A stretch of 64,000 nucleotides of DNA from a virus. The notes beneath the pieces are model-generated. The model was not told the origin of the DNA and did no database searches. It saw only the letters and a list, made by a program, of their open reading frames with translations. The translations under genes were made by a program, and so were the position numbers. This document shows, piece after piece, positions 20,668-61,800 of this stretch; the first letter of the stretch is position 1; every line of letters begins with the position of its first letter. The DNA is taken from IMG/VR virus record IMGVR_UViG_3300044796_000657, positions 248,001 to 312,000 of that record. One strand, given 5' to 3'.

Positions 20668-20952
20668 ATGAAATTCCGTGATTTTGTAAGGTTAAAAGAA
20701 GGCGTTGATTTATCAGACATCCGTGATATGATTTTGAGAGCGATAGGCGGCAACCCCGAAAGTCACGAGGCGTTTAATGCTCCGCTCACTCAGTTTGTAG
20801 AACCGGGGGATTTGGTCAACCGACTTAATTCACTAAAGGGACTCGCTGACCTAATCAAAGATAATGCTTCGGCAATTGATGCGATACAGAACGCACAGAC
20901 CAACAATTTAACTGTTGGACAATTGGCCGTGATTTTGACACGACAAGGATAA
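20668..20952 (+). CDS. Small protein with head-targeting-like N-terminus
   Basis: 94 residues beginning MKFRDFVRLKEGVDLSD. The opening fits the short M-x-F-x-x-[FW]-[LIV]...E pattern shared by several proteins here, and LKE/G also fits the (L/I)xE/(A,G) cleavage rule of T4 prohead protease. The rest is helical (SHEAFNAPLTQFVEPGD, then RLNSLKGLADLIKDNA). AAAGG upstream serves as RBS. It is followed after 3 nt by the first gene of the six-member array. A head-internal role is inferred only from the N-terminus. Confidence 0.55.
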   Translation: MKFRDFVRLKEGVDLSDIRDMILRAIGGNPESHEAFNAPLTQFVEPGDLVNRLNSLKGLADLIKDNASAIDAIQNAQTNNLTVGQLAVILTRQG

Positions 20953-33176: not shown

Positions 33177-33182
33177 TAAATA
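33177..33182 (+). promoter_or_regulatory. Late-promoter-like box TAAATA before 33188
   Basis: TCTAAATATCTTC directly precedes ATG 33188; the box ends 5 nt before the start codon and no Shine-Dalgarno is present. Confidence 0.55.
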
Positions 33183-46701: not shown

Positions 46702-48234
46702 ATGAAGCAATTTGATGAGATGTTGGCAAGTTTTGAAAACAGCAATTCCGAACAATTTAAGAAGCAAACGGGGGTTGTTTATACACCCCCTTTTGTCGTT
46801 AAATACATTCTTGATAAAACCCTCACTTCGCTTTCCGTAGATACCAAGATTATCGACCCCGCTTGTGGGGGCGGTATATTCATTCTGTACGCAATAGAAT
46901 ACCTACGACACGTCACAGGCAAAGCGATAGATGAAATCATCGCAAACAACGTGTACGGCATCGACAACGACCCTAATGCCGTCGCTCTTGCCCATGAGGT
47001 TTTGACTCAATATAGCCAAGTCGCTTGCGGCAAAAAGCCATCTAAGATCAACATATATCATGGCGATTCTACCGACATTGAATTCCTGTCATCGTTGGGC
47101 AAATTCGACTACGTTGTCGGCAATCCTCCTTATGTCCGTATCCAGAACATTCCCGAAGATAAGCGGCAGTATTTGAAATCTTGGAGTATGGTTAATGGTG
47201 ATAGTGATCTGTATATTGCCTTTATTGAACTAGCCTTTTTTCTCTTGAAGTCAGACGGAAGATTGGGCTTCATCACGCCGAATTCTTATCTGAAAAACAA
47301 GTCAACGATCAATCTTTTGAATTGGCTGATCGATAACAGAAAGATCGTTGAGCTTATAGACTTTGAAGGTTATCAGATATTCGGTAAGAAGGCCACAACT
47401 TATACTAGCATTCTTATTGCTTCCAATGAAGAACAAAAATCCATGACCATGCGAAAATTAACTGGTATGGATGAAAATCTGGATAAGGTTTTATCAACGG
47501 ATGTCAAGTCTTATGAAGTTGTCAAATCCAAGAGTATTCTAATTCCTAGCAATAAGATCAATCGCTTGAACAAGTTTGAGAATGTTGGAACAAAGCTCAA
47601 AAACCTAGTTAAGATCAAGGTAGGATTGGCAACACTCGCTGATTCAATCTTTTATACGGATACTGACTTGGAATTGGTCAAACCGTGCGTCAAAGTCAGT
47701 AAGATCAAAAACCAATCTGACATTGTCAAACATACCAAGTCCGTCATTTATCCCTACCAAATCGTCAATGGTAAGGCTGTTCCTTATAGCGAACAAGAGT
47801 TGTCGCAATTCCCAAAGACGTATGAGTATTTGTTGAGTCGCAAGGAGGAATTGATGAAAAGGGATCGTGGCAAGATTGCTTTGTGGTACACTTATGGTAG
47901 AACGCAAGGGTTGACGAGCTTGTTTGGGCGGAAGATGTTAATGCCACCGATGATACAGGATGCTAAGTTTGTTATCTCAGAAGATCCAGATTTGTTGTAT
48001 TTGTCTGGTTATGCGATATTTGGTGATAGGCTTGAGATGTTAAAGATTGTCTTGGAGTCAGATATTTTCAATGAATACATTGCTTTGACGGCGAAGGATT
48101 TTCGTGGTGGATGGAAGGCATGTACCAAGCACGGTATAGAAAACTTTTCTATTCCAGATATTGACGATAATGAGATGGATGAGTTGAAAAATGATACAAA
48201 TGCTTTTTTGAACAGAAAGTATGGTCTGACATAA
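46702..48234 (+). CDS. Eco57I-like N6-adenine methyltransferase
   Basis: 510 residues. GVVYTPPFVVKYIL is the start of the MTase domain, SAM motif I is DPACGGGIF (52-60), VYGIDNDPNAV the acidic strand, and NPPYVRIQ (141-148) the catalytic motif. LGFITPNSYLKNKS and FEGYQIFGKKATTYTSILI are typical of the Eco57I/TaqI-like group. The last 200 residues carry no catalytic motif and probably recognise DNA. No N-terminal nuclease domain is present, so it is modification-only, or a partner lies elsewhere. Its stop is followed at once by the late box of the ART-like gene. Confidence 0.9.
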   Translation: MKQFDEMLASFENSNSEQFKKQTGVVYTPPFVVKYILDKTLTSLSVDTKIIDPACGGGIFILYAIEYLRHVTGKAIDEIIANNVYGIDNDPNAVALAHEVLTQYSQVACGKKPSKINIYHGDSTDIEFLSSLGKFDYVVGNPPYVRIQNIPEDKRQYLKSWSMVNGDSDLYIAFIELAFFLLKSDGRLGFITPNSYLKNKSTINLLNWLIDNRKIVELIDFEGYQIFGKKATTYTSILIASNEEQKSMTMRKLTGMDENLDKVLSTDVKSYEVVKSKSILIPSNKINRLNKFENVGTKLKNLVKIKVGLATLADSIFYTDTDLELVKPCVKVSKIKNQSDIVKHTKSVIYPYQIVNGKAVPYSEQELSQFPKTYEYLLSRKEELMKRDRGKIALWYTYGRTQGLTSLFGRKMLMPPMIQDAKFVISEDPDLLYLSGYAIFGDRLEMLKIVLESDIFNEYIALTAKDFRGGWKACTKHGIENFSIPDIDDNEMDELKNDTNAFLNRKYGLT

Positions 48235-48237
48235 ATA
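48232..48237 (+). promoter_or_regulatory. Late-promoter-like box TAAATA before 48242
   Basis: CATAAATAAGAT then ATG at 48242, 4 nt after the box. The box overlaps the stop codon of the methyltransferase gene; there is no Shine-Dalgarno. Confidence 0.55.
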
Positions 48238-48241
48238 AGAT

Positions 48242-49051
48242 ATGGATTCTTTTAGTCGTTTTATTATTAGCGAAGGTGTCAATATCACGGCATCACCTGA
48301 GTTAGCAGATCAAATTCCTCAAGCGAAAAAAGCGTTGATGCTATATTTGCAGCGATATGGCGATAAGCAAGAACTCAAAGCGAGTATGGCACGCTTCAAG
48401 TATACTTTAACAAAAGTTCGTCAAGACGACTGGAACAATGAAGTAACATATCATTTCACAAATGATACGATTGACAAAGGCAAAGGTCGGGATGAGATTA
48501 TTAGCGACAAATCAGATGATCGGTATGAGTATTATCCAAATTGGGATGGTCGCACGGGGAAAAGGGTTTATAAGAGTCCCAAGGATGCTATTGATTCCAT
48601 TCCGAATGATGAGAATTTAGCTTATCGTGGTATGAGTTGGGAAGAGTGGCGAAGTATTCAGAAAACGGGCATTATCCAGAGTAAAGGTCAACATAATTTC
48701 AGCAATCAAGGATCGTTAACATTTTTCGGCCCCAAGTCTTCAACGGGTGAAAGTTATGCGGGCGGTTTTGCGCCGAATGCTTATTCACCTACGCCTGTTC
48801 GTCCGGGTGTTGTGATTGCGGTTCCCAAGAATCTTCTCAAAACACCAAAAGACAATCCTAATATTCCTCAAGGCGAGTTGGCTTTTGAGGGAACGATGGA
48901 TGCCAAGAATATTGTGAATGCTTGGATGTTGGTTGCCACGAAGACGAAACCGGGGAAATTTGATGTTGTTTTTAACTTAAAAACCAACCAAGTGCGTGAA
49001 GGTTCGAGAATGTCTATCAGTGTGTCGTATTCAATTCGTCAAATCAAGTAA
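48242..49051 (+). CDS. ADP-ribosyltransferase-like protein with head-targeting-like N-terminus
   Basis: 269 residues. The opening MDSFSRFIISEGV matches the short N-terminal pattern shared by head-associated candidates, and ISE/G fits the T4 head-protease rule. From about residue 120, NLAYRGMSWEEWRSIQKTG, GSLTFFGP, ESYAGGF and PGVVIAVPKNLL follow the order of ADP-ribosyltransferase folds (Arg in RG, strand with Ser/Thr and aromatic, then YAxGF). T4 Alt, an injected ADP-ribosyltransferase, is also a head-internal protein. Catalytic Glu could be in GELAFEG. The family call is moderate; substrate unknown. Late box 4 nt before ATG. Confidence 0.55.
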   Translation: MDSFSRFIISEGVNITASPELADQIPQAKKALMLYLQRYGDKQELKASMARFKYTLTKVRQDDWNNEVTYHFTNDTIDKGKGRDEIISDKSDDRYEYYPNWDGRTGKRVYKSPKDAIDSIPNDENLAYRGMSWEEWRSIQKTGIIQSKGQHNFSNQGSLTFFGPKSSTGESYAGGFAPNAYSPTPVRPGVVIAVPKNLLKTPKDNPNIPQGELAFEGTMDAKNIVNAWMLVATKTKPGKFDVVFNLKTNQVREGSRMSISVSYSIRQIK

Positions 49052-49059
49052 GTCTATCA

Positions 49060-49065
49060 TAAATA
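49060..49065 (+). promoter_or_regulatory. Late-promoter-like box TAAATA before 49070
   Basis: TCATAAATACAAT then ATG 49070, 4 nt after the box. It lies in the 18-bp gap after the ART-like gene. Confidence 0.5.
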
Positions 49066-49069
49066 CAAT

Positions 49070-49282
49070 ATGACAGAATACGAGTTAACGTGGGTTCGTC
49101 CCAATTTGACAAAATCTTATGATAGATTGGCAGAATTGGAACGCAAGTTGGCTTTTTTCGAAGCAATGGAATCGATAGCTGCTCTTACACCCAGAACTTA
49201 TACCTTATCAAAAAATTCTTCATTGTCGGATTTGTATGCCGAAGTTGATAGGTTAACTGAAATCAAACAAAGGTTGCTATGA
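49070..49282 (+). CDS. Small helical protein, 70 aa
   Basis: Begins MTEYELTWVRPNLTKSYDRL. Two charged helices (RLAELERKLAFFEAMESIAAL and SDLYAEVDRLTEIKQRLL) likely form a hairpin. No RBS; preceded by a late box. Overlaps the next gene by 4 nt. Confidence 0.55.
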   Translation: MTEYELTWVRPNLTKSYDRLAELERKLAFFEAMESIAALTPRTYTLSKNSSLSDLYAEVDRLTEIKQRLL

Positions 49283-49605
49283 ATTTTACATATGTTGCAA
49301 CTGGCGTAGTTAAGACTCACGGTTGTTTTGACATGGAGTTTGATTTTTTCTTTGTCGCCCTCTATCCAGTGGGATCGGTAGCGTACGATAAAATATCTGC
49401 CAAACGTGGCAGGATGGAAGCCGTTTCAATTAAGAGGGTGGAATTTGTAGGTTGCGACCACCACCCACTTTATACCGATAATCTGAATACCGTTTATACA
49501 GAAAGTGATTTGGTTTCTCATGACGAGGCCAAAAATTTAGCGATTGCTTATTACAATCGCTTGATCAATCAAGCCAATAATGCTATTGAGTTGCGGAATT
49601 GTTAA
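49279..49605 (+). CDS. Unknown protein, 108 aa
   Basis: Begins MNFTYVATGVVKTHGCFDME. Strand-rich, with FVGCDHHPLYTDN in the middle and a C-terminal helix (DEAKNLAIAYYNRLIN). Coupled to the previous gene and overlapping the convergent gene by 23 bp. Not recognised. Confidence 0.55.
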   Translation: MNFTYVATGVVKTHGCFDMEFDFFFVALYPVGSVAYDKISAKRGRMEAVSIKRVEFVGCDHHPLYTDNLNTVYTESDLVSHDEAKNLAIAYYNRLINQANNAIELRNC

Positions 49606-49813
49606 CAGCGTTTGGGCTTTGAGTGACGTTGGGGTTTTGAAATTCAACGCTGATAATGCAGTTGGAGGTGGCCGGAAAGGCGTGCTTTGTAAGGCCGTCT
49701 TGTAGATATTTGATGATTTCCAGCACGCTGCCGGAAACTTCAACCCCCCACGATGCTTGGTTAGCTTGGACTGTTTCTTGTTGGTTTTTCCATTCATCAA
49801 ATTTAATAAGCAT
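49583..49813 (-). CDS. Unknown protein, 76 aa
   Basis: From ATG 49813 (MLIKFDEWKNQQETVQANQA), overlapping the stop region of the preceding minus gene; the frame is open further upstream but without an RBS. Contains a central helix SVLEIIKYLQDGL and an Asn/Ser-rich tail. Last gene of a four-gene minus-strand late operon that starts at 50708. Confidence 0.5.
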   Translation of the reverse strand: MLIKFDEWKNQQETVQANQASWGVEVSGSVLEIIKYLQDGLTKHAFPATSNCIISVEFQNPNVTQSPNAVNNSATQ

Positions 49814-49820
49814 TATATTC

Positions 49821-50087
49821 TCAATTAAAAGGGTTAGCTTCTTGTGGGGTTTCAATTCGCATTTTCTTACCATCGAGATCGTATTTGATACTGACTTGCT
49901 GTACTGGCAAAGTAGTTTCTTCACCGTCCAACATGCTCAATTCGTGTTCGATCTTCAACCAGTGGCAGCGGTCGTTGGGTTTAACTTTTAATTCCAAGTA
50001 TTCCCCTGCATGAACCACGGTTACGTTACAAACGCCTTCTTCGGCATTATACATCGCACAATTCTTACAGATTTTCTTTTTTAACAT
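49821..50087 (-). CDS. Small Cys-containing protein, 88 aa
   Basis: From ATG 50087 (MLKKKICKNCAMYNAEEGVC). CKNC, one further Cys and CHW in the first 50 residues could bind a metal or an iron-sulfur cluster. It overlaps the 56-residue gene upstream by 23 nt. Function unknown. Confidence 0.5.
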   Translation of the reverse strand: MLKKKICKNCAMYNAEEGVCNVTVVHAGEYLELKVKPNDRCHWLKIEHELSMLDGEETTLPVQQVSIKYDLDGKKMRIETPQEANPFN

Positions 50088-50235
50088 TTTTCTTCTTCTT
50101 TTTATCATCGGACAAAATTACGGGCTTTGGATACATTCTGCCTACTGATCCGCCGATAGGTCTGGCGAAGTTGGCAATATCCCCTGTACTTGTCATAGTT
50201 TCTTCGATGTTTTTTAACCATTCTCTAAAAGTCAT
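50065..50235 (-). CDS. Small protein (56 aa) with head-targeting-like N-terminus
   Basis: ATG 50235 overlaps the stop of the previous gene (TAATG), with GGAGG 7 nt upstream. The product begins MTFREWLKNIEETMTS, fitting the M-x-F-x-x-W-L...E pattern of the head-associated candidates. It ends in a strongly basic tail (DDKKKKKNVKKENL), which could bind DNA, as expected of an internal head protein. Confidence 0.55.
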   Translation of the reverse strand: MTFREWLKNIEETMTSTGDIANFARPIGGSVGRMYPKPVILSDDKKKKKNVKKENL

Positions 50236-50708
50236 TACATTCCTCCCATTGGTGGACCGCCGCCTCCGGTCGGACCAGCCAAAGTGTTACCCTGTGATTT
50301 CCATTGTACTCCACCGGAAGCCCCGGCGAAATCTGCTCCTTGATAATTAGGCGGTTCCATCAATTTCAGGAACGTATCACGTGTCATTGTGATTGATTTT
50401 TTGCCCAAATTATCAGCCGTGTCCAAATCTAATTCATCATCAATATCGTCGCCATTACCATCTTTATCCAAAGCCGCATAGGGAATTGGTTTGATGGTAA
50501 CCGTATGACTATCAAAGTCAGTGACGTAGAAAGCCGCCGGTTGGCGAATTAAGTGTCCGCCCAACTTAACATTGCTCAATGTGATCGGCATACCGAACCA
50601 CAACTTTTTTGGAACTTTGAGTTGTTTTTTGATCGTAGAAACGTAGCTGTCAGGAGCTTCCGCTTTTTTCTCTACAAACAATTTAAACCCAACTAGCAAA
50701 TTTGACAT
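50235..50708 (-). CDS. Unknown late protein with Gly-rich C-terminus
   Basis: 157 residues. The opening MSNLLVGFKLFVEKKAEAP contains GFKLFVE/K, similar to the FKLWLE openings of other head-associated candidates. The middle is strand-rich; DKDGNGDDIDDE (about 83-94) resembles an EF-hand loop but with the hydrophobic position shifted by one. The end is Gly-rich (GGGGPPMGGM). A late box (TAAATA, 50713-50718) stands 4 nt before its ATG, back to back with that of the next gene. Confidence 0.55.
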   Translation of the reverse strand: MSNLLVGFKLFVEKKAEAPDSYVSTIKKQLKVPKKLWFGMPITLSNVKLGGHLIRQPAAFYVTDFDSHTVTIKPIPYAALDKDGNGDDIDDELDLDTADNLGKKSITMTRDTFLKLMEPPNYQGADFAGASGGVQWKSQGNTLAGPTGGGGPPMGGM

Positions 50709-50712
50709 ACTC

Positions 50713-50736
50713 TATTTACACCTTGGGTTATAAATA
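50713..50736. promoter_or_regulatory. Divergent pair of late-promoter-like boxes
   Basis: Within the 32 bp between two divergent ATGs lie TAAATA on the minus strand (50713-50718, 4 nt before ATG 50708) and TATAAATA on the plus strand (50729-50736, 4 nt before ATG 50741). The second is an exact match to the T4 late-promoter consensus. There is no room for ribosome-binding sites or separate leaders. Confidence 0.65.
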
Positions 50737-50740
50737 GACT

Positions 50741-52105
50741 ATGAAATTTAAGTCTTGGATTGCGGAAACTCTGAATTTTGATTCTCCTCAAAGGGCAGGC
50801 ATGCAAACGCACCCTTTGGTTACAGGTGCTACAGTTGGTTTAGAGATAGAATTAATGACCCTCTCAATTCCTTACAAGGAATTTACACCTTTAATGTTAG
50901 CAAGGGCGTTATGGGATGCTGATGATTATAAATTTGATGTTCAACAACGAATGAGATTGAATGCTGAATCTGAATATGATGATGATGAAGATTTGGATAT
51001 GCGAGATTTGATTAACTGGGTTACGATGAATAAAAAAGAGGCTTACGATTATTTCAAACAACATCTTGAAAGTGGCCAGTTGAACTTAGGTAAAACCAGT
51101 ACGGATTGGAAAGACGAAGTTGTTAAGTATTGGTCTAAACACTTTATGAAAGCTATTGAGGCGGGAGGGTTTAAGGCTTTTTATGGTGCGCAATCTACGA
51201 AAGACTCTTGGGCTGTTGGCGATGATGGTCACGATACTATGTACCATATCCCCATCTTGGAAATGAGGAGTTCCGTTATTCCTTATGCGGCGTTGCCAAA
51301 TCTTCAAAAAGCGTTAACTGCGATTGCCGAAGTAATCAAAAACAATCCAGAAGATTTAATGGTTCAAAACAATACTGGTATCCACATTCACGTTGGTAAT
51401 GCACGGACTGGCGATTTGAATGCCAAGGGCTGGCGTGGCGATCATATGGACATGTTTAGCCGGTTAGCCGCTGCCACTCATACGGACGAAGACAGCATTT
51501 GGGATACGATGTCAAAACACGATAGGGATTTTTCTCAATTCGCTATGCTTAACAGACAGCAGGATTTTGAACAGACCCGGAGCGGGTACGGAAGTGCTCA
51601 CAATGATATTATCAACCAACTGAACAACTTAAGGTACAAGAAAGAACCGACGATAACGGTCAGCAACAAAGACTTGTGGAACCGGGTCAAGCCCGACCGT
51701 AAGAGTGGAACAAGTGTCGTTTCAGAGCATCCGACAGTAGAATACCGACACTTTACATCGCAGGTGTTGATGGAGGCTGATGGCGTAGAAAAGATTATGG
51801 CGTGGATCAAGTATTTCGTTGATAATGCCGCTTCGCAAGTCAATAAAAATAGGATCAAGTTTGAGAATGACGAAGAGCGTATTATTCTGACGAAGTTGCC
51901 AAAGGATATGGTAAGAATTGACTTCCAAGACAAAGGATCAAAAGCTAGAATTCCGCAACCCGGTATGCCAAGGGATGCGTTGATGGCGACTCCCAAGAGT
52001 GGGGTACGGGATACCGATCAAGGGTTCAAGCATTGGTGGGATAGATTAACGTGGCAGCAAAAGGCTCAGTACAGAAAAGACAAGGGCAGACCGCCTCTTG
52101 TTTAA
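50741..52105 (+). CDS. Amidoligase-like protein with head-targeting-like N-terminus
   Basis: 454 residues. The opening MKFKSWIAETLNF is very close to the T4 internal-protein peptide (MKTYQEFIAEA). After it, TGATVGLEIELM, NNTGIHIHVGNAR and VEYRHFTSQVLMEADGVEKI follow the order of amidoligases (ELE, HxHxG, EYR), like the protein at 38333 but much diverged. The C-terminus is Arg/Lys-rich. If it is packaged, it may act on host peptides or proteins after injection; this is inference. An exact TATAAATA lies 4 nt before the ATG. Confidence 0.55.
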   Translation: MKFKSWIAETLNFDSPQRAGMQTHPLVTGATVGLEIELMTLSIPYKEFTPLMLARALWDADDYKFDVQQRMRLNAESEYDDDEDLDMRDLINWVTMNKKEAYDYFKQHLESGQLNLGKTSTDWKDEVVKYWSKHFMKAIEAGGFKAFYGAQSTKDSWAVGDDGHDTMYHIPILEMRSSVIPYAALPNLQKALTAIAEVIKNNPEDLMVQNNTGIHIHVGNARTGDLNAKGWRGDHMDMFSRLAAATHTDEDSIWDTMSKHDRDFSQFAMLNRQQDFEQTRSGYGSAHNDIINQLNNLRYKKEPTITVSNKDLWNRVKPDRKSGTSVVSEHPTVEYRHFTSQVLMEADGVEKIMAWIKYFVDNAASQVNKNRIKFENDEERIILTKLPKDMVRIDFQDKGSKARIPQPGMPRDALMATPKSGVRDTDQGFKHWWDRLTWQQKAQYRKDKGRPPLV

Positions 52106-52332
52106 AAGTCGCCACAACAAGGCTCAGATTCCATTTTCTTAATGGTTTCCAAGAGTATGCCGCCGTACGGATCAATATTACACGTAAACGAATCATTAAC
52201 GTCAATGTTGTAGGCTTCTAGGAACAAATGATGTACAAGTATCTGCGCCAATGGCTCAGTAGACCACGGGCAGCATACCATCAAATCGTCCAATTGCTCA
52301 GTTACGGTAAAGGTATCTTCTTGTATTGTCAT
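52102..52332 (-). CDS. Small acidic protein, 76 aa
   Basis: Begins MTIQEDTFTVTEQLDDLMVC. Acidic, five Cys including a C-terminal CC. Overlaps the convergent amidoligase-like gene by 4 bp. No RBS is clear. Not recognised. Confidence 0.5.
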   Translation of the reverse strand: MTIQEDTFTVTEQLDDLMVCCPWSTEPLAQILVHHLFLEAYNIDVNDSFTCNIDPYGGILLETIKKMESEPCCGDF

Positions 52333-52341
52333 TCAAGTAGT

Positions 52342-53199
52342 TTAACCAATAAAATCAGAAATTCTACTCAAGACTTCTTTCCAATTACCCAATTCTTTTT
52401 GTCGCCATATTTTCATGGTGGGATACCAAATACTGTCACCGGAACCCCATCGCCAATCATGCTGATAAGCCAAAGCCAAATGTACTGTTTTTCCCATCGC
52501 TGCTGCCAAATGAGCAACAGCCGTATCAACACTGACTACAGTATGACATTCCGCTATCAGTTTGGCTGTATCATTCAAGTCTGCCAACATTAGAGAATAA
52601 TCTTCGAATCTTAAGTCGGATTGTGTGACCATTAAACTTGTTAATTTTCTTCCATCCTTAACTAATAAACTAAAATCTTCTGCTGAGGATGACCTGATGC
52701 TGTCATCGGCGTGACCTGCAAATCCTGTCCATGCCACACCAATTCTCCCTTGGTCGTTATTGGGAATGTTAATGTACTGTTCGTTGATGATTGTTTTGAA
52801 GTGAGCGGGTAAACTGGAAACTGGAATTACAAAGTTGCAATTCGGCAAAGCATCACCACGAACTATTACGTCATAACCTTGGTTTTTCATCAAGTGAAAC
52901 AGTTCAGGTGCAACTTCCAATACGACATTTGACATTAAGTCTGTATATCGTACCCACATGATAAAATCGCCGAAACCTTGATCTTGGTAAACGAGAACTT
53001 TTCCTTGTTCACCTTTCCATGTTGGCATCGGGTAATGACTTCGTCTGTTAATTGTTGAGCGATGACCTTTGAGTCGCCATTCCAATTCAGGCCACGCTTC
53101 TTGCCATCTTCCCAAATAACCCAATACACATCCATATCGCCAATGAAGTTCGGCATCATTAGGGTTTTTGAAAATTTGATCTTCGAGATCTTTGAGCAT
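52342..53199 (-). CDS. TPR-containing GT9-like glycosyltransferase
   Basis: 285 residues. The N-terminus (PNDAELHWRYGCVLGYLGRW) is one tetratricopeptide-type helix pair. VLVYQDQGFGDFIMWVRY then marks the first Rossmann domain of the ADP-heptose/GT9-like fold (GxGD). VVSVDTAVAHLAAAMGKTVHLAL and the C-terminal DWRWG...WYPTMKIWRQ are the donor-binding signatures. It likely transfers a sugar from a nucleotide donor to a protein or glycan. Its start shares a base with the stop of the GNAT gene. Confidence 0.75.
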   Translation of the reverse strand: MLKDLEDQIFKNPNDAELHWRYGCVLGYLGRWQEAWPELEWRLKGHRSTINRRSHYPMPTWKGEQGKVLVYQDQGFGDFIMWVRYTDLMSNVVLEVAPELFHLMKNQGYDVIVRGDALPNCNFVIPVSSLPAHFKTIINEQYINIPNNDQGRIGVAWTGFAGHADDSIRSSSAEDFSLLVKDGRKLTSLMVTQSDLRFEDYSLMLADLNDTAKLIAECHTVVSVDTAVAHLAAAMGKTVHLALAYQHDWRWGSGDSIWYPTMKIWRQKELGNWKEVLSRISDFIG

Positions 53200-53741
53200 T
53201 AACTATTTTTTTTACGAGTGGGCTTGTAATGAATAATAGCGTCCGAATCTGGGTATTTATTTTGCCATCCCATGCTGGCGTACCAAGCCTTCAATTTTTG
53301 TGTACTTAGTCCTTTGGGCGGCTTTTGGCCTTTAACTTTAGCGGGCGTTATTTCTTGGGGTTCGGCAACTAAAGTTATTCCCAATTTATTTGCGACACTT
53401 TGCAACCATTTCAGAGATGATGTTGCCAATCCTTTGCCACGTGCTTCTGGCTTAACAATAATTGCGGCAACTGTTAATTGTTTTGATTGCTTTGGGTCAT
53501 ATCCGGCAACCATTACCCTATTCTGATAAAGGTATAGGTCGTATTCTGATAATGCAATCTTCACATTTCCGTCTGGACTAACGATTGTAGGGTAATTTGT
53601 GCCACCCAATGAGACGACTTCGGGATTAGTACCCGGAATTAATCGATTAGATGGTGCTTCCCACCGCCAACCTTGTTTTTCAATTTCAGAACGCAAACTG
53701 ACAAATGGGTGTGCGGCTTCAATGAATAATCTAAAACTCAT
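53199..53741 (-). CDS. GNAT acetyltransferase with head-targeting-like N-terminus
   Basis: 180 residues. Opening MSFRLFIEAAHPF fits the shared N-terminal pattern. The GNAT core is LTVAAIIVKPEARGKGLATSSLKWLQSVA (about 88-116), with the acetyl-CoA loop as R-G-K-G-L-A, followed by WYASMGW near residue 155. It would acetylate an amine of an unknown target. With the N-terminal peptide it might be carried in the head. TATATA stands 4 nt before the ATG, a weaker version of the late box. Confidence 0.7.
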   Translation of the reverse strand: MSFRLFIEAAHPFVSLRSEIEKQGWRWEAPSNRLIPGTNPEVVSLGGTNYPTIVSPDGNVKIALSEYDLYLYQNRVMVAGYDPKQSKQLTVAAIIVKPEARGKGLATSSLKWLQSVANKLGITLVAEPQEITPAKVKGQKPPKGLSTQKLKAWYASMGWQNKYPDSDAIIHYKPTRKKNS

Positions 53742-53856
53742 CTTCTATATATTGCTCGTAAAAATTAACTTTTACTTCAAGTTCCATCAAAAAGACGGAT
53801 AAAAATTTTTTGGTCGAGACTAACTATTACGTTATCTATAAAGTGAGGGTAGTACC

Positions 53857-54399
53857 ATTCCGATTTTATCCACTGATCTTTTGTTCAAATACTCAACAAC
53901 GACTGGGTCTGCCGGAAATACGACGGCTCAAGGCAATCCTAATAATGCGCTCGGAAAATATATTTCTACAACGCAATGGACGGGTGGTACCTTAAATGAC
54001 TTGTTTGACGACATTACGGGTGATGAAAACGCCAACTCGATTGTTGATTACCGCTGTATTTTCCTTCATAACAACCACGGATCGTTAACTTTGTTGAGTC
54101 CTAAGTTATGGATTGCTTCCGAAGTTTCTGGTGGTGCCAATATCGCTCTTGGTGTTGATACGACCGCCGCTTCTGTTATCGGTGCTTCGTCCGCTCAAGG
54201 TTTGACGATTGCCGATGAAACTACGGCTCCTTCCGGTGTTTCATTCAGTAGCCCAACTACCAAATCTGCTGGCCTTTCACTCGGTGACATTCCAGCCGGT
54301 CAATGTAAGGCATTCTGGTTCCGTCGCACGGCAACCAATAGTGCTGCTTTGAATAACGATGGCGTAACGGTACAAATTGAAGGCGATACGAGTGCGTAA
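53857..54399 (+). CDS. Virion-type structural protein, apparent ATT start
   Basis: 180 residues if started at ATT 53857, which lies 7 nt after GAGGG (53845-53849) and gives MPILSTDLLFKYSTTTGSA. The first conventional codon is TTG 53881 with no RBS, which would remove eight residues. Composition is rich in Ser, Thr, Gly, Ala and Asn, with strand-forming repeats (CIFLHNNHGSLTLLSPKLWIAS, GANIALGVDT, AGQCKAFWFRRTAT), as in phage tail and decoration proteins. A TATAAAG sequence occurs further upstream. A terminator follows 21 bp after the stop. Confidence 0.65.
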   Translation: MPILSTDLLFKYSTTTGSAGNTTAQGNPNNALGKYISTTQWTGGTLNDLFDDITGDENANSIVDYRCIFLHNNHGSLTLLSPKLWIASEVSGGANIALGVDTTAASVIGASSAQGLTIADETTAPSGVSFSSPTTKSAGLSLGDIPAGQCKAFWFRRTATNSAALNNDGVTVQIEGDTSA

Positions 54400-54420
54400 T
54401 GAATGATTGAAACTATGAAC

Positions 54421-54447
54421 AAAGCCCGCTATAATAGGCGGGCTTTG
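54421..54447 (+). terminator. Intrinsic terminator after the virion-type gene
   Basis: AAAGCCCGC / GCGGGCTTT stem with an 8-nt loop, then TTATTTAA. Ends the monocistronic 53857 transcript. Confidence 0.75.
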
Positions 54448-54467
54448 TTATTTAACGTGGAGATATT

Positions 54468-54674
54468 ATGTACTTTTACTTAAGACAGCGATCAAGTGGC
54501 ATGGTGTTGGAAAGTGATATTAATCAATCTCGTCCCATGTTAGAACCGGGTTTTATTAGATGGACGCCCGAAATTCAACACTCAATTGATATTACTCCTC
54601 AATTAATTGAACAACTACAAGTAGAGTGTGGTAATTGGGCTGCAAGACCAATTCCTACATGGTGGGAAAACTAA
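54468..54674 (+). CDS. Small protein, 68 aa
   Basis: Begins MYFYLRQRSSGMVLESDINQ with GGAG 5 nt upstream. Short aromatic strand pair, then a helix (ITPQLIEQLQVECGN) and a Trp-rich end (WAARPIPTWWEN). Not recognised. Confidence 0.5.
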   Translation: MYFYLRQRSSGMVLESDINQSRPMLEPGFIRWTPEIQHSIDITPQLIEQLQVECGNWAARPIPTWWEN

Positions 54675-54683
54675 TCACTGATC

Positions 54684-54689
54684 TAAATA
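54684..54689 (+). promoter_or_regulatory. Late-promoter-like box TAAATA before 54698
   Basis: TCTAAATACTCTCACT then ATG 54698; the box ends 8 nt before the ATG. No Shine-Dalgarno in between. Confidence 0.5.
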
Positions 54690-54697
54690 CTCTCACT

Positions 54698-55594
54698 ATG
54701 GACTTTAAACTTTGGTTAGAATATAGCGGGGCTAAATCGGTTCTCGTTTATCACGGTACAGATCCCAAAAACATTCCTTCTATTATGTCGCAGGGTTTGA
54801 TTCCAAATCCCAAAGCAAGAAAATGGGCTGATGATCCACATGCCAATTTCAATTCAGCAAGCCGCAAATCAATTGGTGGTATTTATTTAACCACCAATCT
54901 ACAAACGGCCTTTTCTGCTGCCCCACCGAGAACTGCTTGTATTGTTGTGGCCGAAGTACAGCCGAGAAGTATGTTGGCGGATGAAGATGATTTGATGTCA
55001 ATGGGACAAGCAAGCGATCACGAATATACTTTATTGGAATTGTTTTTTGCGATCAAAACGAATACCAATCACGAATTCGTAGAGCAAATGAAAGCCAAAT
55101 ACGAACAAAGTGTATTCGCAAGAATTACATGGAAGATTCCAAATATATCACCACAATTGAAAATTAGAGTTAAGCAAATTCTCGATGACGCATTTCCTTA
55201 CGTTGTAGACCGTCAAACAGCACACGTTCATACAGATGAATTTCGCAATAGAAAGTATTACCACAAAGAAGCCAAGGATGTTCAACAACCCAATAAGCAA
55301 GCTGCGGAAGCCGCTTATCAGAAACACCTAGATTTGGCAACCAGAGCCTTGAAGTCAATCGGCAATCCTTATAGTCGTAAAGAAAACAGTTTGTTCATGT
55401 TCGTCGGACGGCTAATGGAACCAATTAGATTCAGTGGTGCGAATAAAATTGTATGCGTTATTGAAACTTGGCTTAATGAAAAAAATAAGACAAGAGTGAA
55501 ATTGCTTTACGGAAGCGTACCAGATAAGCTCATTAAGGATTGGAACTCAGCCATTGGCCCGTGGGAAAAGGCCATTAGCGAAGAGGGCAATTAA
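54698..55594 (+). CDS. ART-fold protein with head-targeting-like N-terminus
   Basis: 298 residues from ATG 54698 (MDFKLWLEYSGAKS); the frame upstream overlaps the previous gene. VLVYHGTDPKNIPSIMSQGLIPNP (starting at residue 15) carries the H of the H-Y-E type ADP-ribosyltransferase fold, and KSIGGIYLTTNLQTAFSAA the Y and following helix. This resembles PARP, Tpt1 and other 'YHGT...GIYLT' enzymes, which transfer ADP-ribose or a related group from NAD. The catalytic Glu may be ELFFAIK. The C-terminal half is unknown. Its N-terminus is nearly the same as that of the kinase-like protein (MNFKLWLEAV). Confidence 0.6.
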   Translation: MDFKLWLEYSGAKSVLVYHGTDPKNIPSIMSQGLIPNPKARKWADDPHANFNSASRKSIGGIYLTTNLQTAFSAAPPRTACIVVAEVQPRSMLADEDDLMSMGQASDHEYTLLELFFAIKTNTNHEFVEQMKAKYEQSVFARITWKIPNISPQLKIRVKQILDDAFPYVVDRQTAHVHTDEFRNRKYYHKEAKDVQQPNKQAAEAAYQKHLDLATRALKSIGNPYSRKENSLFMFVGRLMEPIRFSGANKIVCVIETWLNEKNKTRVKLLYGSVPDKLIKDWNSAIGPWEKAISEEGN

Positions 55595-55596
55595 CG

Positions 55597-55629
55597 AATA
55601 AAACCCACTTATTATAAGTGGGTTTTATT
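55597..55629. terminator. Bidirectional terminator
   Basis: A long stem AATAAAACCCACTT / AAGTGGGTTTTATT lies between the convergent ART-like gene (ends 55594) and the Pro-rich gene (ends 55636); A and T runs flank it on both strands. Confidence 0.8.
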
Positions 55630-55635
55630 GCGATT

Positions 55636-57135
55636 TCAATAAGACGAACTACTAGATCCGGTTTCACATGTTGAAACACGCATTCTCGGAAGATCGTACT
55701 TTAACCAATCACGATAAATCTTGGTAAAATCTCTTATCATTTTTTCAATTGATGAACATAGGTCATTCATCCCGTCAATGGTAGCCTTCCAATCACACTT
55801 ACAAGTAAACGCAAGAATAAAATCATTCAAATTTTTCAATGCATTTTGAATTGGTGTAAAATAATCTTTAACAGTAGCAAAAGAATTCAGTATTGCTGTT
55901 CCAATTTTACAACAAGCTTCACTCTTACTGCAATAAAGATTCTTAAGAGCAATCATTTCGTCATTCGTTTTATTGACTTCTTGGATGATAGCATTAGCAC
56001 TGTAAGTAATAGTATTCAAACGATTGAATACAGCTAAATTGGCAGCATCACACTGAGCTTGTCTTTCAGGAGGAGCAGCAACAGCATTTACTCTATCGCA
56101 TAAGCAACCTACAATTTGCTGTCTCAAATAAGTGCAAATGCTCTTACAGTTATCGTCTCCTCCTGCACACTGAGGAACTACGTTTTCGGGTGTATTGGTG
56201 TCAGTGAGGAGTTGTCCAAACTTGTTACAGCCTATTTCTACAACTTTGTTAAGTGCAAATTTCATCAATGCATCAATTTGCCTTCTTTCGGCTTCATCGG
56301 GGCTTATTCTTCTTGCACCTGAATCAACAGCGTATTCGTAATATAATCTTTGTGCTTCGGTAAATGTGCTTCTCGTAACACCAAACGGTGAAACTTGAAT
56401 CGTATATTTTAAAACATCCGAAGTTAAGGTGCGGGAAATACCAAACGCATCGGTATAATTAGTGGCGTCAGCACCCATTGTTTCGAATAACTTAATTACG
56501 CAAGCATCCTCTGCGGGAGTAGGAGTTGGGAAAAACAAAGCTAATGGTCCACCGCCGCCTTTTGGTCCACCTTTTGGACCACCTTTTGGGCCAAGTCCTC
56601 TTGGCCCGGTGCCCGGCGATACTGTTGCAGATGGTGCTGCAGGAACAGGAACGACTTGCGGTCTAATAATAGCCGTCGGCTTTGGAAGTTTAACTCCGGG
56701 TTGCTCGACGGAAGAGAAAGGCTCTCCTAGAGGGCCGGATATAATTGGTTGGCCATTTGACGGCACAATTGGGCTTCCTTGTGGCGGCACCGTAGTTAAC
56801 GAATATGGTCCTCTTGCACCACCAGTACTCATGCCTTTATCATAACCCATACCTTGATCGCCAACAATAAGTTGTCCGTTGCCGAGGCGTCCATTAGCAT
56901 ATGGTTGCGCTGGCATAGGTATACCAGGACCAGTAGATGGTGCTGGAGCAGGTTGCGGTCTGACCGTACCCGGAATTAATTGGCCAGTATTCCTATCAAA
57001 TTGTGCACCATCGAGTCTTTGTCCTGCTCCATATGGCATTGCACTATTTCCTTGTCCTGCCTGTGGCATTGGTGGGAATGGACCGAGAGGTCCGGGGGTG
57101 CCGGGGATTGGAGGTGTACCGGGTGGTGGTGCCAT
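55636..57135 (-). CDS. Pro/Gly-rich protein with Cys-rich C-terminal domain; paralogue of 3033-4655
   Basis: 499 residues. The first 210 are Pro/Gly-rich (MAPPPGTPPIPGTPGPLG, later LGPKGGPKGGPKGGGGP). The C-terminal domain has about sixteen Cys in pairs (CAGGDDNCKSICTYL, CLCDRV, CSKSEACCKIG, CKCDW) and long helices. It ends CETGSSSSSY. The shared plan with the protein at 3033 (Pro-rich arm, Cys-containing helical domain, CxxSSSS tail) indicates a gene family. An extended virion protein stabilised by disulfides or metal is my inference. Upstream TATAATAA is only a weak late-box match. Confidence 0.6.
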   Translation of the reverse strand: MAPPPGTPPIPGTPGPLGPFPPMPQAGQGNSAMPYGAGQRLDGAQFDRNTGQLIPGTVRPQPAPAPSTGPGIPMPAQPYANGRLGNGQLIVGDQGMGYDKGMSTGGARGPYSLTTVPPQGSPIVPSNGQPIISGPLGEPFSSVEQPGVKLPKPTAIIRPQVVPVPAAPSATVSPGTGPRGLGPKGGPKGGPKGGGGPLALFFPTPTPAEDACVIKLFETMGADATNYTDAFGISRTLTSDVLKYTIQVSPFGVTRSTFTEAQRLYYEYAVDSGARRISPDEAERRQIDALMKFALNKVVEIGCNKFGQLLTDTNTPENVVPQCAGGDDNCKSICTYLRQQIVGCLCDRVNAVAAPPERQAQCDAANLAVFNRLNTITYSANAIIQEVNKTNDEMIALKNLYCSKSEACCKIGTAILNSFATVKDYFTPIQNALKNLNDFILAFTCKCDWKATIDGMNDLCSSIEKMIRDFTKIYRDWLKYDLPRMRVSTCETGSSSSSY

Positions 57136-57186
57136 AATTTCTTTCTTTCTTTTGGGCGACTGAGTGCCATTATTATATTGATGTGC

Positions 57187-58158
57187 TTATTTTTTTTTAG
57201 GCAAAACAATTGGCTTAACATTTAATTCTTGTCTCGCCTGTTCGAGTTGTTCTTCAAACTCTTTGATTTGTTCTGGAAATTCTTTGACTATAGCATTTTT
57301 TAAGTGATTCAATAATCTGAAGTGATTTCTTCTTTCATTGTCGTCGCCATGAACCATTAATGGTACTAAATTTATAGCATCTTCCCATTCCCTATCAATC
57401 ATACTAACGCCGCTTTTATCGACCAAAGTATTAAATCTACTCATATCATCTTTGAACGACCAGTCGTCTCCCTTTTGCATTTTCCCTAAATCGTAATGAT
57501 ATATTTTACCACGATAAACACCTACTTGAATTTGGTCGTTGATTGAGTATCCTGCTTTGTGAAAAGCGTTTATAGTATCCTTAACTTCGTTCAATTGTTC
57601 TTTGGTTAACTTACCCGGAATATCCACTTTCGGCCTTACCGCAAATGCTTTGTCGCCTATAATTCTAACATATGTCGGCAGAATACCGGGAACGCCTTGC
57701 TTTCTCAATTTCTCTGTTAGTCTTACATTTTCCAGCATACTTCTTGCAGCGCCAGCCGGTGTTCTATGAAAGACACTTGCATTTGTGGGTTGAAACGGTA
57801 CAGTTGTAGAAACTTTAACGATCATATCTCCAACCTCAAACGCCATACCGTCATCGCCTTTTCCTAAATACTTGGCTTGACCGTTAATGACTTTTGAAAT
57901 ATAGGGATCATCGGTTTTTTTGGATACTTCAACTTTTTTGGTTAGATCGTTGGCGAAATGTTGTACGGCAGCACGTGTCATTTTGAACGCACCGATAAGG
58001 TCATCATGTTGGAGATGTTGAGTTAGCCAAACCGAATCGCCTCTGATGTGTACGATCTTGACTTTGATGGGTGAACGGTTATCTTCCTCGGAAGCAGGAA
58101 TGTCAATGATCTGTCCAATTTTCAAGTCTACGGCTTCTAACCACAGTTTGAAATTCAC
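57187..58158 (-). CDS. Protein-kinase-like protein with head-targeting-like N-terminus
   Basis: 323 residues. Opening MNFKLWLEAVDLK. A glycine-loop-like LGKGDDGMAFEV (98-109) is followed by IVKVS with Lys115, a helix with Glu (SMLENVRLTEKL), the hinge FAVRPKVDI, then AFHKAGYSINDQIQVG (198-213) and YHYDLGKM (220-227). The last two match the catalytic-loop (HxxGY...D) and DFG-like positions of small aminoglycoside/protein kinase folds. The Asn after the catalytic Asp is not evident, so activity is uncertain. Coupled to the small gene upstream (58155-58158 overlap). It may be packaged and injected to modify host proteins. Confidence 0.5.
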   Translation of the reverse strand: MNFKLWLEAVDLKIGQIIDIPASEEDNRSPIKVKIVHIRGDSVWLTQHLQHDDLIGAFKMTRAAVQHFANDLTKKVEVSKKTDDPYISKVINGQAKYLGKGDDGMAFEVGDMIVKVSTTVPFQPTNASVFHRTPAGAARSMLENVRLTEKLRKQGVPGILPTYVRIIGDKAFAVRPKVDIPGKLTKEQLNEVKDTINAFHKAGYSINDQIQVGVYRGKIYHYDLGKMQKGDDWSFKDDMSRFNTLVDKSGVSMIDREWEDAINLVPLMVHGDDNERRNHFRLLNHLKNAIVKEFPEQIKEFEEQLEQARQELNVKPIVLPKKK

Positions 58159-58337
58159 TTCTTGGCATTCCTTACAACTGTAGGCTCGCCGCTATCATCA
58201 AAAGTAAATTTGACTTTCTTCTTTGGCTTGTCACCGCCAACTACAATCGGCTCACCTTCTAAATTTGAGGCTAAACGAATTTTATCGTGATGCTTTTTGG
58301 CTTCAACGAACTCTCTGAATGTTTTGAATGTTTTCAT
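58155..58337 (-). CDS. Small basic protein with head-targeting-like N-terminus
   Basis: 60 residues beginning MKTFKTFREFVEAKKHHD, the closest match in the window to the T4 internal protein III opening (MKTYQEFIAEA). The rest is short, Lys-rich and unstructured (KPKKKVKFTFDD), as is usual for DNA-associated head-internal proteins. CTATATAA lies 6 nt before the ATG. Confidence 0.6.
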   Translation of the reverse strand: MKTFKTFREFVEAKKHHDKIRLASNLEGEPIVVGGDKPKKKVKFTFDDSGEPTVVRNAKK

Positions 58338-58370
58338 AACGTTATATAGGATTTCTTTTTCGTTCCATTC

Positions 58371-58376
58371 TAAATA
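58371..58376 (+). promoter_or_regulatory. Late-promoter-like box TAAATA before 58382
   Basis: TTCTAAATAACTTC then ATG 58382, 5 nt after the box, within the 44-bp divergent gap from 58337. Confidence 0.55.
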
Positions 58377-58381
58377 ACTTC

Positions 58382-58765
58382 ATGTTAACTTGGCAAGATT
58401 TCCTGAAAATTCGTGAACATCAACTACACGAACCCAAAAACCACAAAGATGCTGTCAAGGAAGCCAAGAAGGTTAAGTTGGAATTTTTCGAAAAACGAAA
58501 ACAAGGAGCGGCTAAGATTGCTGCCGAAGCACGATCAAAAGGTGGCCCGTCAATGTTAACAGCTTGGCATTTCGCTGCCAAAGCCCAACCTTACAATGAT
58601 GTATTGTCTGCCATTCGTACTGATAAAGATGAAAACTTCTTTATGCAAAAGTGTTTGTTGTTAGCCACCAAGTTGAAATTCGCCAAATTGGATGAAGAGC
58701 AATTTCAAAAACTGATGGGTCAAATTGAGGTTTGGGGCGAAGCGTTTGCCAAACTATGGCATTAA
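58382..58765 (+). CDS. Small basic helical protein, possible head-internal protein
   Basis: 127 residues beginning MLTWQDFLKIREHQLHEP; WQDFLKIRE is a looser match to the shared N-terminal pattern. Lys/Ala-rich helices follow (DAVKEAKKVKLEFFEKRKQGAAKIAAEARSKG, longer segment 23-54). Basic helical proteins of this size are common in phage heads. Late box 5 nt upstream, no RBS, and a terminator directly behind. Confidence 0.55.
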   Translation: MLTWQDFLKIREHQLHEPKNHKDAVKEAKKVKLEFFEKRKQGAAKIAAEARSKGGPSMLTAWHFAAKAQPYNDVLSAIRTDKDENFFMQKCLLLATKLKFAKLDEEQFQKLMGQIEVWGEAFAKLWH

Positions 58766-58806: not shown

Positions 58807-61800
58807 TTAGCCCGGTGATGAGACGTTCGTAATAATACCACCAACAACTTCAACAAGCATTCCATCGCCTGATTGGAATGATCCTGTATATCCTTGAACC
58901 CCACCAATTGAAAAGTAATTTGTAGCATTGAACCACGCAGCGTTAATAATTCCAGAGGCATTAACCGCAGGGGCAATGAGATCAATAGCAGGATCTTCGC
59001 CAGTAGTTCTACATAAAACTTGGGCATCAACAGTACCCACAACTACCGAATTATCGATATTAGATGTGATGCCGAATCCGAAAGCATATTGATTTTCAGA
59101 TATGTCAGCACCTTCAATGAATGTCGGAGCAAATACATTGTTCGCCAAGGTTCCACTCAAACTTCTATTACCAGCAGCACCATAAACAGCTTGTGCCAAA
59201 GTACCAGAAGGGCCGACATTTGATTCAAGGAAAACAATAAAATGGGAACTGTAATTGGTGGTAATTTCATTATAGAAATTTTGAGAAGTAAACATAGCAC
59301 TATAACCACCATCATTAAAGATGGTGATGGGGATATTTCCACCAGACACACTTGAATTATCATCAAATTCAAAGGTGTAGACATTGCCATTGGTGTCAGT
59401 TAGCACAATAGTATCACCATCTACTACTGTTTGTGAACCAAAATTGAAAGATGCTGCTCCTTGAGCTGGTTCGTGTCCAACTGTATTATCGTTGCCAATA
59501 GTCAAATTATTATTAGTGTCTGGTCCAACAAGGAAATCACCGTCACTTAATAAAGTATGATCCACAACAGTGCCCATTGCGTCAACCGTAGTGACCATTG
59601 GGGCAAAGCCGCTTTCATCATCCCTCAGCCAAAAGAACATCTTGTGAACATCCCCTTCAACAATAGAAGGGGGAGCAGCTGCGTGTGTACCTAATGGACC
59701 AGATATTTCAAGTTGTCCATCAACGCCAAGATTCAATAAGGTTTGATGATTATCCCAAGTAGTTGCTTCTTCACCAGCATCGACACCTTGAATTTGAAGC
59801 CCATTGTATCCGGCAGTACCTTGGAATCCTAATTTGAATGCGGCATTACTCTTATTGTCAATTTCATCATTATCTGGATTGACATTATAGCCCCAAACCA
59901 ACTCGCTGTTTTCTTTTTGAATTAACCAACCGCTTTCTAGTGGTGTACTTTCGTGAAGGGTATTGTTAATTGTAATGCCTGGCGAAACATTGATGTGGGT
60001 TGCGTGTAAGTTCAGAGTATTAGTATCGCCCAAAGCTTCAATGTAGTTTGCGTCAACCCCAAATCTGGAAGAGTTATCAACACTGACAGTTAAGCCTTTA
60101 CCAAACGCAGTCATATAAGTTCCAATATCCGATCCGTCATGGAACTGAGTTTCAAATATTGTTCCAGCTAAAGTGCCAACAACTTCCGTGTTTCCACTTT
60201 CCCCTTGATAGACTTGCGTTAGAAGATTGCCACCAATATCCACATTGAATACAGCATCTTGACTTTGGTAATTGTGGGCGTTTAAGAAAGCGAATTTTGT
60301 ATTTGCGGCACTATAAGTTCCGGCAATGGCAACCTGAATACCATCGGTATGCGTTCCTACATTGGTGAAGTAGAAATTATAAACGTTTCCAGAAGTTGCC
60401 GTGAAGCCAATGGTGTCACCTTCTGTGATGGTGCCACCGATACCGAAGTCGCAAGATGCCGTCGCCCCGTTATCAACATCACCATTGGTGAATGCTGACG
60501 GGAAGAAGCCACCGTTCAAATTTCCAGTAAAAGCCGTGTTGCCTGCCGTGCCGTTGGCTTGGGTAAACAATATGGTCGTTGGTCCAGTCTGAGTAGCAGT
60601 GATTTCAAAACCGGGACCGGCTTGAAACATTTCAAAAAAGTTTGTAGTAGTGTTGTTCGCATCGTAACCGGTCGTTCCAATACGAACAATAATAGAGCCG
60701 TCAATAGAACGAACACCATTTGTGAATTCATAATTGTTAGATAGCTCAACCGCCCCGGCTTGGAAAGTGACATAATCACCATTGGAAATTGATCCAGCAG
60801 TGAAATCAAAGTTAAGAATCGCACTTGCCGCACTTCTGTTGGTGCTGTTGTTAAACCCTATAGCAACTAGATTATTTGGACCGTTAAGATTGTTGCCGCC
60901 ACCCATTTGAATGCTGGCTGATTGGACGATGAAATTGTTTGTGGTTGACATGTAAAGATCAACTCCGCCCTCACCAGACGCAATGAAGGTTGTATTGTCT
61001 TCATTGTTCAATCCAATATATGCACTGTCAAAGTGTAAAGTTCCACCAACTTCAATGAGGGAATTGTTACCATTGAATGTTAAGTTGACATCATCAATAC
61101 CTATTTTTAGGGTATTTTCTACTTGGTTATCTTGACCAGTTCCAATAGAATAAATGTTAACTAGTGGATTGAGACCGCCTGAAAAAGATGATGATCCAAA
61201 GTAATCACTACTGATTGAAGTATTGCCATCTGTGCCTGTAAAATTTTGCGTTAATTGAACAATGCTACCATCAACACCATAGCCTAATGGAACATTACCT
61301 TCGCTGAGAGCATCAAGAAAATTATTTGCTTGTGCTGAAGAACTTCCAGCAATCGTTACTGGAATATTGCCTTCTGTTACCGACATATCGTCATCAAACT
61401 CAAGAGTATAAGTGGTAGTAGCACCTGCCGCCTTGAGAACTTCGATAGTTACCGTTTGTCCATTCGTAGGAATACTCGTAAATGTTAGTGTTGCTTGTGC
61501 TGGAGTGCCGTCGCTGCCGGTTGTATTATTATCACCGAAAACAAATGTGTTCCGTCCATTAACGGTATTATCGCCAATGTCAACACGACTTGCTTTCAAT
61601 TGCATGGTATTGAAAGACGCCTCCGTTGTATCAAAATACAATAGACCATAAGTGTTGCCTTGGTCGTCTTCTTCCGAACTTAATTCAACTTCACAATAAC
61701 TATTTATGATTTCGGCATCACCGCCAATAGCTTGAACTGAAATCGTGCTACCGTTGCCATAAACTTGTGCGTAATTATTTGGATCATCATCTTGACCCAA

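Follow-up and report, generated by a model that had tools for sequence, protein, structure and literature searches.

The DNA analyzed here is a 64-kb window (bases 248001-312000) from an IMG/VR virus record of 430,229 bp that is listed as 'linear' (IMGVR_UViG_3300044796_000657, hereafter G000), and it raises the question of why proteins that are otherwise unrelated should open with one short aromatic peptide. An initial annotation of the window listed ten or so such proteins, compared the peptide to the N-termini of the T4 internal proteins, and proposed that they reside inside the phage head and are delivered with the DNA. The likely answer is that a T4-type capsid-targeting sequence (CTS) system has been expanded into a modular regulon of injected effectors, in which packaging, cleavage, and injection are predicted from sequence comparison. 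The genes of G000 and of LR756511 (595 kb; terminase identity, 42%), its nearest relative in the phage collection, were called by a custom script (704 and 1,052 genes), and the start codons are therefore computed rather than curated.

A shared N-terminal tag

The tag peptides of the initial annotation were all found, at the places given or within a few bases of them. When the search was extended to the rest of the genome, the pattern M-x(1-5)-F-x-x-[WFY]-[LIVM]-x(0-3)-E was found at the start of 16 of the 684 G000 proteins against 0.87 expected (Poisson 2e-15), and in LR756511 it opens 24 of 1,025 proteins against 1.5 expected (Poisson 7e-21). The expected counts are the match rate at internal positions of the same proteins. 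A stricter form, F..W[LIVMF]E, occurs six times against 0.1 in G000 and 13 times against 0.15 in LR756511. When genes that combine the aromatic pair with the upstream box described below are included, the two genomes have 68 tagged proteins, which fall into 63 sequence families, and about eight further ones are reached through alternative start codons backed by the box. What these otherwise unrelated proteins share is a short stretch at the N-terminus in which two aromatics are spaced by three residues; its consensus is M-x(1-3)-F-[KR]-[EQ]-[WF]-[LVFI]-E. Their median length is 152 aa. The set is thus real but larger than first described: the MGVFKSYFES protein (19809-20612, minus strand) and about a dozen proteins outside the window had been missed.

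It may be asked whether a loose pattern chosen by eye among many proteins would yield such a set by chance. The pattern is indeed loose, and one replication-type family (G352434/R543819) matches it through its own fold and was scored as a false positive. However, the Poisson values above, the lack of an excess in LR756508, XaC1, S-BM3, and immuto, and reversed-pattern and shifted-box controls near zero refute chance, to which we give practically no weight. T4, S-BM3, Mel-JY01, immuto, and XaC1 have zero to one strict match each, without a strict excess in XaC1, S-BM3, Mel-JY01, or immuto, and LR756508, a 484-kb gp23-type phage with gp20, gp21, and gp23, has one tag match against 1.22 expected. 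Thus, the expanded tag set is a property of the lineage and not of large or AT-rich genomes.

The N-termini of T4 ipI, ipII, and ipIII are capsid-targeting sequences. Applied to T4, the aromatic-pair pattern recovers ipI (MKTFKEFTSTTTPVSTITE/A; here and below the slash marks the known or presumed cleavage point), ipII, and ipIII, plus gp61.1. In IPIII, the first ten residues are enough for packaging, with residues 4 and 7 serving targeting and residues 8 and 10 serving processing (PMC9026906), and the residue spacing of the tag is that of this proven CTS. As for gp61.1 (NC_000866 18966-19130), this 54-aa hypothetical protein starts with MKTFKEFIKED like the internal proteins and may likewise be packaged into the T4 head.

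The upstream box

Ahead of the tagged genes lies a box, TA[ACT]ATA (mostly TAAATA or TATATA), whose start is usually at -11 or -10 from the ATG. In G000, a box at these positions precedes 13 of 19 tagged genes against 35 of 684 untagged ones (Fisher 3e-12), and the corresponding counts in LR756511 are 21 of 35 and 58 of 1,017 (Fisher 2e-16). A control stretch farther upstream holds almost no boxes. The box was discovered on these two genomes and then tested on other records. As baits for IMG/VR relatives, the C39 peptidase pair gave none, and the major capsid protein and single TerL baits gave none or distant ones; a ParM-like protein of the lineage worked. In 1.31 Mb of loci around this ParM-like gene, box and tag coincide seven times against 0.41 expected. 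Searched as one DNA pattern over whole records, box, ATG, and tag give 106 matches in 13 lineage records against eight for the reversed control, whereas in T4, XaC1, and LR756508 they give one match against six for the reversed control.

The T4 late-promoter consensus is TATAAATA, and the box resembles it, but the exact consensus was rejected as a definition of the box because it is too narrow. In T4 itself, most copies of the late consensus are at -21 to -42 relative to the ATG, whereas the box of this lineage lies at -10/-11. Only weak gp55-like matches were found in LR756511. Since a box at -10/-11 would place the transcript start near the ATG, leaderless mRNA is a reasonable expectation, and we infer that the box drives transcription late in infection, possibly of leaderless messages. 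Many genes with a box lack a tag. Among box genes without the aromatic tag, [LI]xE is not convincingly overrepresented, so that the box by itself is not enough to delimit the set.

The shared 5' end could also be a transcription/translation cassette, comprising the promoter and start region of leaderless mRNAs, that is spread by recombination, in which case the peptide would merely follow from the DNA or RNA sequence. The tight co-occurrence of box and tag would suit this explanation, as would the rarity of Shine-Dalgarno sequences in tagged box genes (4/50 against 920/1,705 other genes), which is partly mechanical because the box occupies that place. However, synonymous codons are free at the kept residues: the first F is TTT in 43 cases and TTC in 25, and L is spread over five codons. 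It is therefore the peptide that is conserved, not the DNA. Tags also occur without a box, as in the C39 peptidase at 428779, the orthologues of which keep F, W, and E. The box genes that lack a tag, and orthologues with diverged tags that retain F, W, and [LI]xE, likewise speak against the cassette, and we consider it very improbable in comparison with a targeting peptide.

Two other upstream motifs were noticed. The motif GTGACCATACA(CCC), searched as TGACCATAC, stands before 61 G000 genes, many of them small (e.g., 32401, 33585, and 35384, outside the window), none of which is tagged (0/61), and it probably marks another promoter or regulatory class. In LR756511, GCTGTACTAAA and GGGTTCGA precede untagged genes (n = 36, e.g., 3689, 5158, and 13487; 0/36 tagged when searched as GCTGTACTAA or GGGTTCGA), and these motifs are possibly the counterpart of the G000 one.

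Tagged genes in the window

The tagged genes of the window, with one box gene that lacks the aromatic pair (33188-34663), are as follows.

19809-20612, minus strand: tag MGVFKSYFESD; the LR756511 homologue (397976) is tagged as well.
20668-20952, plus strand: tag MKFRDFVRLKE/G; divergent from 19809-20612; no box seen.
33188-34663, plus strand: 491 aa, MNVLNE/A without the aromatic pair; box TAAATA at 33177-33182; no Pfam match.
48242-49051, plus strand: 269 aa, tag MDSFSRFIISE/G; box TAAATA at 48232-48237.
50065-50235, minus strand: small tagged gene, MTFREWLKNIEE; overlaps the preceding gene by one base; no box of its own.
50235-50708, minus strand: tagged gene, MSNLLVGFKLFVEKK; box TAAATA on the minus strand at 50713-50718.
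50741-52105, plus strand: amidoligase-like, 454 aa, tag MKFKSWIAE/T; box at 50731-50736, within TATAAATA.
53199-53741, minus strand: GNAT acetyltransferase (Pfam 9e-4; PHROG 1249, 5e-4), tag MSFRLFIEAAH; box TATATA at 53746-53751.
54698-55594, plus strand: weakly ART/KptA-like, tag MDFKLWLEYSG; box TAAATA at 54684-54689.
57187-58158, minus strand: 323 aa, GTG start, tag MNFKLWLEAVD; directly downstream of 58155-58337; no box of its own.
58155-58337, minus strand: tagged 60-aa gene, MKTFKTFREFVEAKK; box TATATA at 58343-58348.
58382-58765, plus strand: variant tag MLTWQDFLKIRE/H, with W as the first aromatic; box TAAATA at 58371-58376.

The coordinates of the MTFREW gene (50065-50235) and the GFKLF gene (50235-50708) had to be corrected, as did the start codon of 57187-58158, which is GTG. 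Two genes had been named as looser members. The one at 58382 is counted as a member because it has the same upstream box, in spite of its W. The one at 33188 has the box and an LNE/A site at residue 6, like that of Alt, but the aromatic pair is missing.

The enzymatic cargo that was suggested for these genes fared unevenly. The tag spacing of the 50741 protein is exactly that of T4 IPIII, and its Amidoligase_2 match (Pfam 8e-4) begins at residue 31; this match and that of the GNAT protein (9e-4) exist but lie just under the Pfam cut-offs. Two ART-like (ADP-ribosyltransferase-like) proteins had been proposed. The one at 54698 is weakly so, with VYHGT immediately after the tag (Pfam 0.015-0.027; PDB KptA 0.21), and clear tagged ARTs are found elsewhere in the genome. 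The supposed metalloprotease at 33188 has a HEHAH zinc-protease-like motif by eye without a Pfam match, and the kinase-like assignment of 57187-58158 finds no database support. PDB sequence searches with the 54698 and 57187 proteins gave nothing significant, and AlphaFold2 single-sequence models of 57190-58158 and 54698-55591 (predicted local distance difference test, pLDDT, 40 and 32) were too poor for a fold search. The middle part of the 48242 protein, which has no Pfam match, is like a phage 'large polyvalent protein' region (tblastn 4e-8). Beside these genes, 58807-63270 (minus strand) encodes a 1,487-aa protein without a Pfam or PHROG match and with TAAATA upstream, possibly a virion structural protein.

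Head genes and the cleavage site

A gp23 homologue lies just beyond the window, at 312147-313097 of the record (Pfam Gp23 5e-27; PHROG 138, 4.5e-29), and the large terminase is at 332501-334165; judged by its genes, the source phage is T4-related and of the gp23 type. The N-terminus of this gp23, ...ALWEKTGLLKGLSDDKKLAVSILMENQRVLNE/SHDD, is a T4-type propeptide with an LxE end when T4-like phages are compared, and it would be cut at VLNE/S. The G000 gp23 is just 316 aa long.

The initial annotation cited the T4 prohead protease, which removes the IPIII N-terminus after (L/I)xE. For an independent assessment, 40 stretches around box-plus-tag matches in five relatives gave 44 tagged open reading frames, or 40 without near-duplicates, chosen without any requirement for E. 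[LI]xE follows just after the tag in 26 of the 40; shuffling the residues gives 11.0 ± 2.6 and never more than 20 in 2,000 rounds, and untagged proteins give 5.4. If the next residue must be A, S, G, N, or Q, the count is 18 against 3.7. In four orthologues, LNE, IEE, LDE, and LQE precede the conserved start SSLNDLY/SNLQDLY (alternatives here). A second orthologue pair has ITE/Q and LIE/Q at the boundary, and a third has LKE/A in both. Such a site at the boundary of tag and mature protein would fit processing by a gp21-type protease. LR756511 carries a gp21 protease (4.6e-48) plus portal and gp23. It has two gp21-like prohead proteases (242240 and 525953), and its portal gene (531014-533587; 857 aa) contains, by eye, an apparent intein-like insertion (CVAGDTLIS...).

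These data also bear on whether the tag is some other localization or assembly signal, for example for a replication compartment or for tail or membrane docking, with proteins that act late in the same infected cell. Short amphipathic peptides at an N-terminus could be put to many uses, and the tagged genes are scattered across the genome, not confined to the neighborhood of head genes. Against this, the spacing equals that of the proven T4 CTS, the pattern recovers T4 ipI-III, and the gp21-type [LI]xE stands at the boundary of tag and mature protein. We regard another signal as unlikely. Import into a phage nucleus belongs to the same group of explanations; no evidence for it was found, and no chimallin search was made.

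Targeting to the head through an N-terminal peptide of the T4 type is thus well supported, if unproven, because of the T4 positive control, the lineage specificity, the late-promoter-like box, the [LI]xE at the boundary, and gp21 in the relative. For the initial proposal of head-internal proteins delivered with the DNA, the comparison strongly supports targeting, while packaging, cleavage, and injection are extrapolated from it. Several observations weigh on the other side. The box is present in only 18 of 24 tagged genes in G000 and 32 of 44 in LR756511. In both genomes taken together, roughly half the tags have the form F-x-x-[WF]-[LIV]-E, not [LI]xE; these may be cut elsewhere, be cut by a relaxed protease, or be targeted without cutting. 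The tag and box module is absent at the corresponding place of gp23 itself and of the terminase, and most tagged proteins have no known domain. A gp21-like protease, for which the initial annotation proposed to search the rest of the genome, was not found in the 430-kb record, nor was gp20 (portal), with Pfam PF03420 and home-made gp20/gp21 hidden Markov models. Many further LR756511 core genes were likewise not found there although terminase and gp23 are present, and the record is probably incomplete.

Modularity and cargo

Some proteins exist both with the module of box and tag and without it. The GNAT gene at 53199-53741 has box and tag, whereas the L216 orthologue (40% identical) has neither and carries AAAGGAGG instead. 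A tRNA nucleotidyltransferase is tagged in LR756511 (580680), whereas its G000 homologue (71531) starts at its own domain and has the GTGACCATACA motif upstream. The C39 peptidase is tagged in G000, LR756511, and a 533-kb relative, whereas a G000 paralogue (409212) is untagged.

Recognizable cargo in G000 includes ART-PolyVal (388420; Pfam 2e-13) with a short copy (10421; 1e-4), NUDIX (343759; Pfam 2.5e-7), and Peptidase_C39_2 (428779; 2e-18). In LR756511, Pfam matches among tagged proteins are PolyA_pol/CCA-adding (1e-25), HAD_SAK_1 RNA repair (2e-15), a tRNA-ligase phosphodiesterase domain (8e-9), and DUF5661 with a weak LPD3 match. In further relatives they are GNAT, C39, a weak Arr ART, and AAA_33 (7e-17), and the tagged L245:30-419 of a 533-kb relative (G002) matches DUF3293/S-AdoMet lyase (2.5e-17, 4e-6). 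The ART-PolyVal, NUDIX, and C39 tagged proteins have single enzymatic domains and are not fused multi-effector polypeptides. S-adenosylmethionine (SAM) lyase is an anti-restriction activity in other phages. Breaking defenses early and modifying the host would be a fitting role for such a combination of ARTs, Nudix, RNA repair, and SAM cleavage. ARTs and Nudix of myoviruses have been argued to be virion-delivered (PMC9503650), and T4 Ip1-3 block type IV restriction (PMC12373910).

Proposed mechanism and its meaning

The proposed 5' module consists of the late-promoter-like TA[ACT]ATA box at -11/-10 and a peptide of 10-20 residues, M-x(1-3)-F-[KR]-[EQ]-[WF]-[LIV]-x(n)-[LI]-x-E, and it precedes about 24 genes in G000 and 44-51 in LR756511, with unrelated products. 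Late in infection, the tag peptide would bind the prohead core and the protein would be carried into the head, where many of the tagged proteins would be processed after [LI]xE by a protease of the gp21 type. The mature protein would then be ejected with the DNA, and it would modify host proteins or disarm first-line defenses before phage gene expression. In this way, phages of the lineage probably inject a whole protein toolkit along with their DNA. We lean slightly toward a further idea, that the module is a portable 5' plug-in cassette, a leaderless late promoter plus a cleavable capsid-targeting peptide, which turns an ordinary gene into an injected-effector gene and supplies a pre-emptive ART/Nudix/RNA-repair/protease/SAM-lyase-like kit whose content varies between phages.

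Proteins that a phage injects are difficult to recognize, being short, fast-evolving, and mutually unrelated. If tag and box mark them, each genome of the lineage offers dozens of candidate virion-delivered proteins, most without an assigned function, and the anti-defense or host-takeover role of each becomes testable. The internal-protein strategy is known from three small T4 proteins and from at least ten across the T-even phages; here it would be scaled up into a general protein-delivery system that is traceable by sequence alone.

Comparison with known systems

The CTS principle is already known, as is the fact that T-even internal proteins can be found through their signal (PMC12373910). 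What is apparently new is the size of the set, the enzymes among its cargo, its link to a box at -10/-11, and its distribution over a lineage of uncultured huge phages; no paper on such a system was found in the literature searched, from which most subscription journals were absent. The closest known system is T4 IPI-III. Both have an aromatic-x-x-aromatic-aliphatic peptide of 10-19 residues on unrelated proteins, which in many of the tags here also has an [LI]xE end, a gp23-type head, and a gp21 protease, here in the nearest relative. However, T4 has three such genes and the lineage 24-51. In addition, the lineage prefers W over F at the second aromatic, E often comes right after the hydrophobic residue, the cargo includes recognizable enzymes rather than small basic proteins, and the tag is coupled to the box.

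Another relative is T4 Alt, an injected ADP-ribosyltransferase with a propeptide site at ITE-6 (PMC5694885). ART cargo is common to both, and the LNE-6 start of the 33188 protein resembles the ITE-6 of Alt, but Alt has no aromatic-pair tag, and the tagged ARTs of the lineage are ART-PolyVal and other groups. The polyvalent or virion-packaged NAD/ADPr enzymes, which are argued to be delivered with the DNA (PMC9503650), share ART-PolyVal, Nudix, and weak LPD3 domains with the tagged set. In those systems, effectors form part of large fusion proteins or are joined to head proteins, whereas here they are mostly short, separate tagged proteins. Finally, giant phages of the phiKZ/SPN3US type also have many head proteins that undergo processing by a protease and enter the host by ejection (PMC5694885). 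Their propeptides are mostly long (more than 100 residues in several, one of 20) and the lineage tag is short; phiKZ cleaves at S/A-x-E (PMC9026906), whereas the lineage is of the gp23 type.

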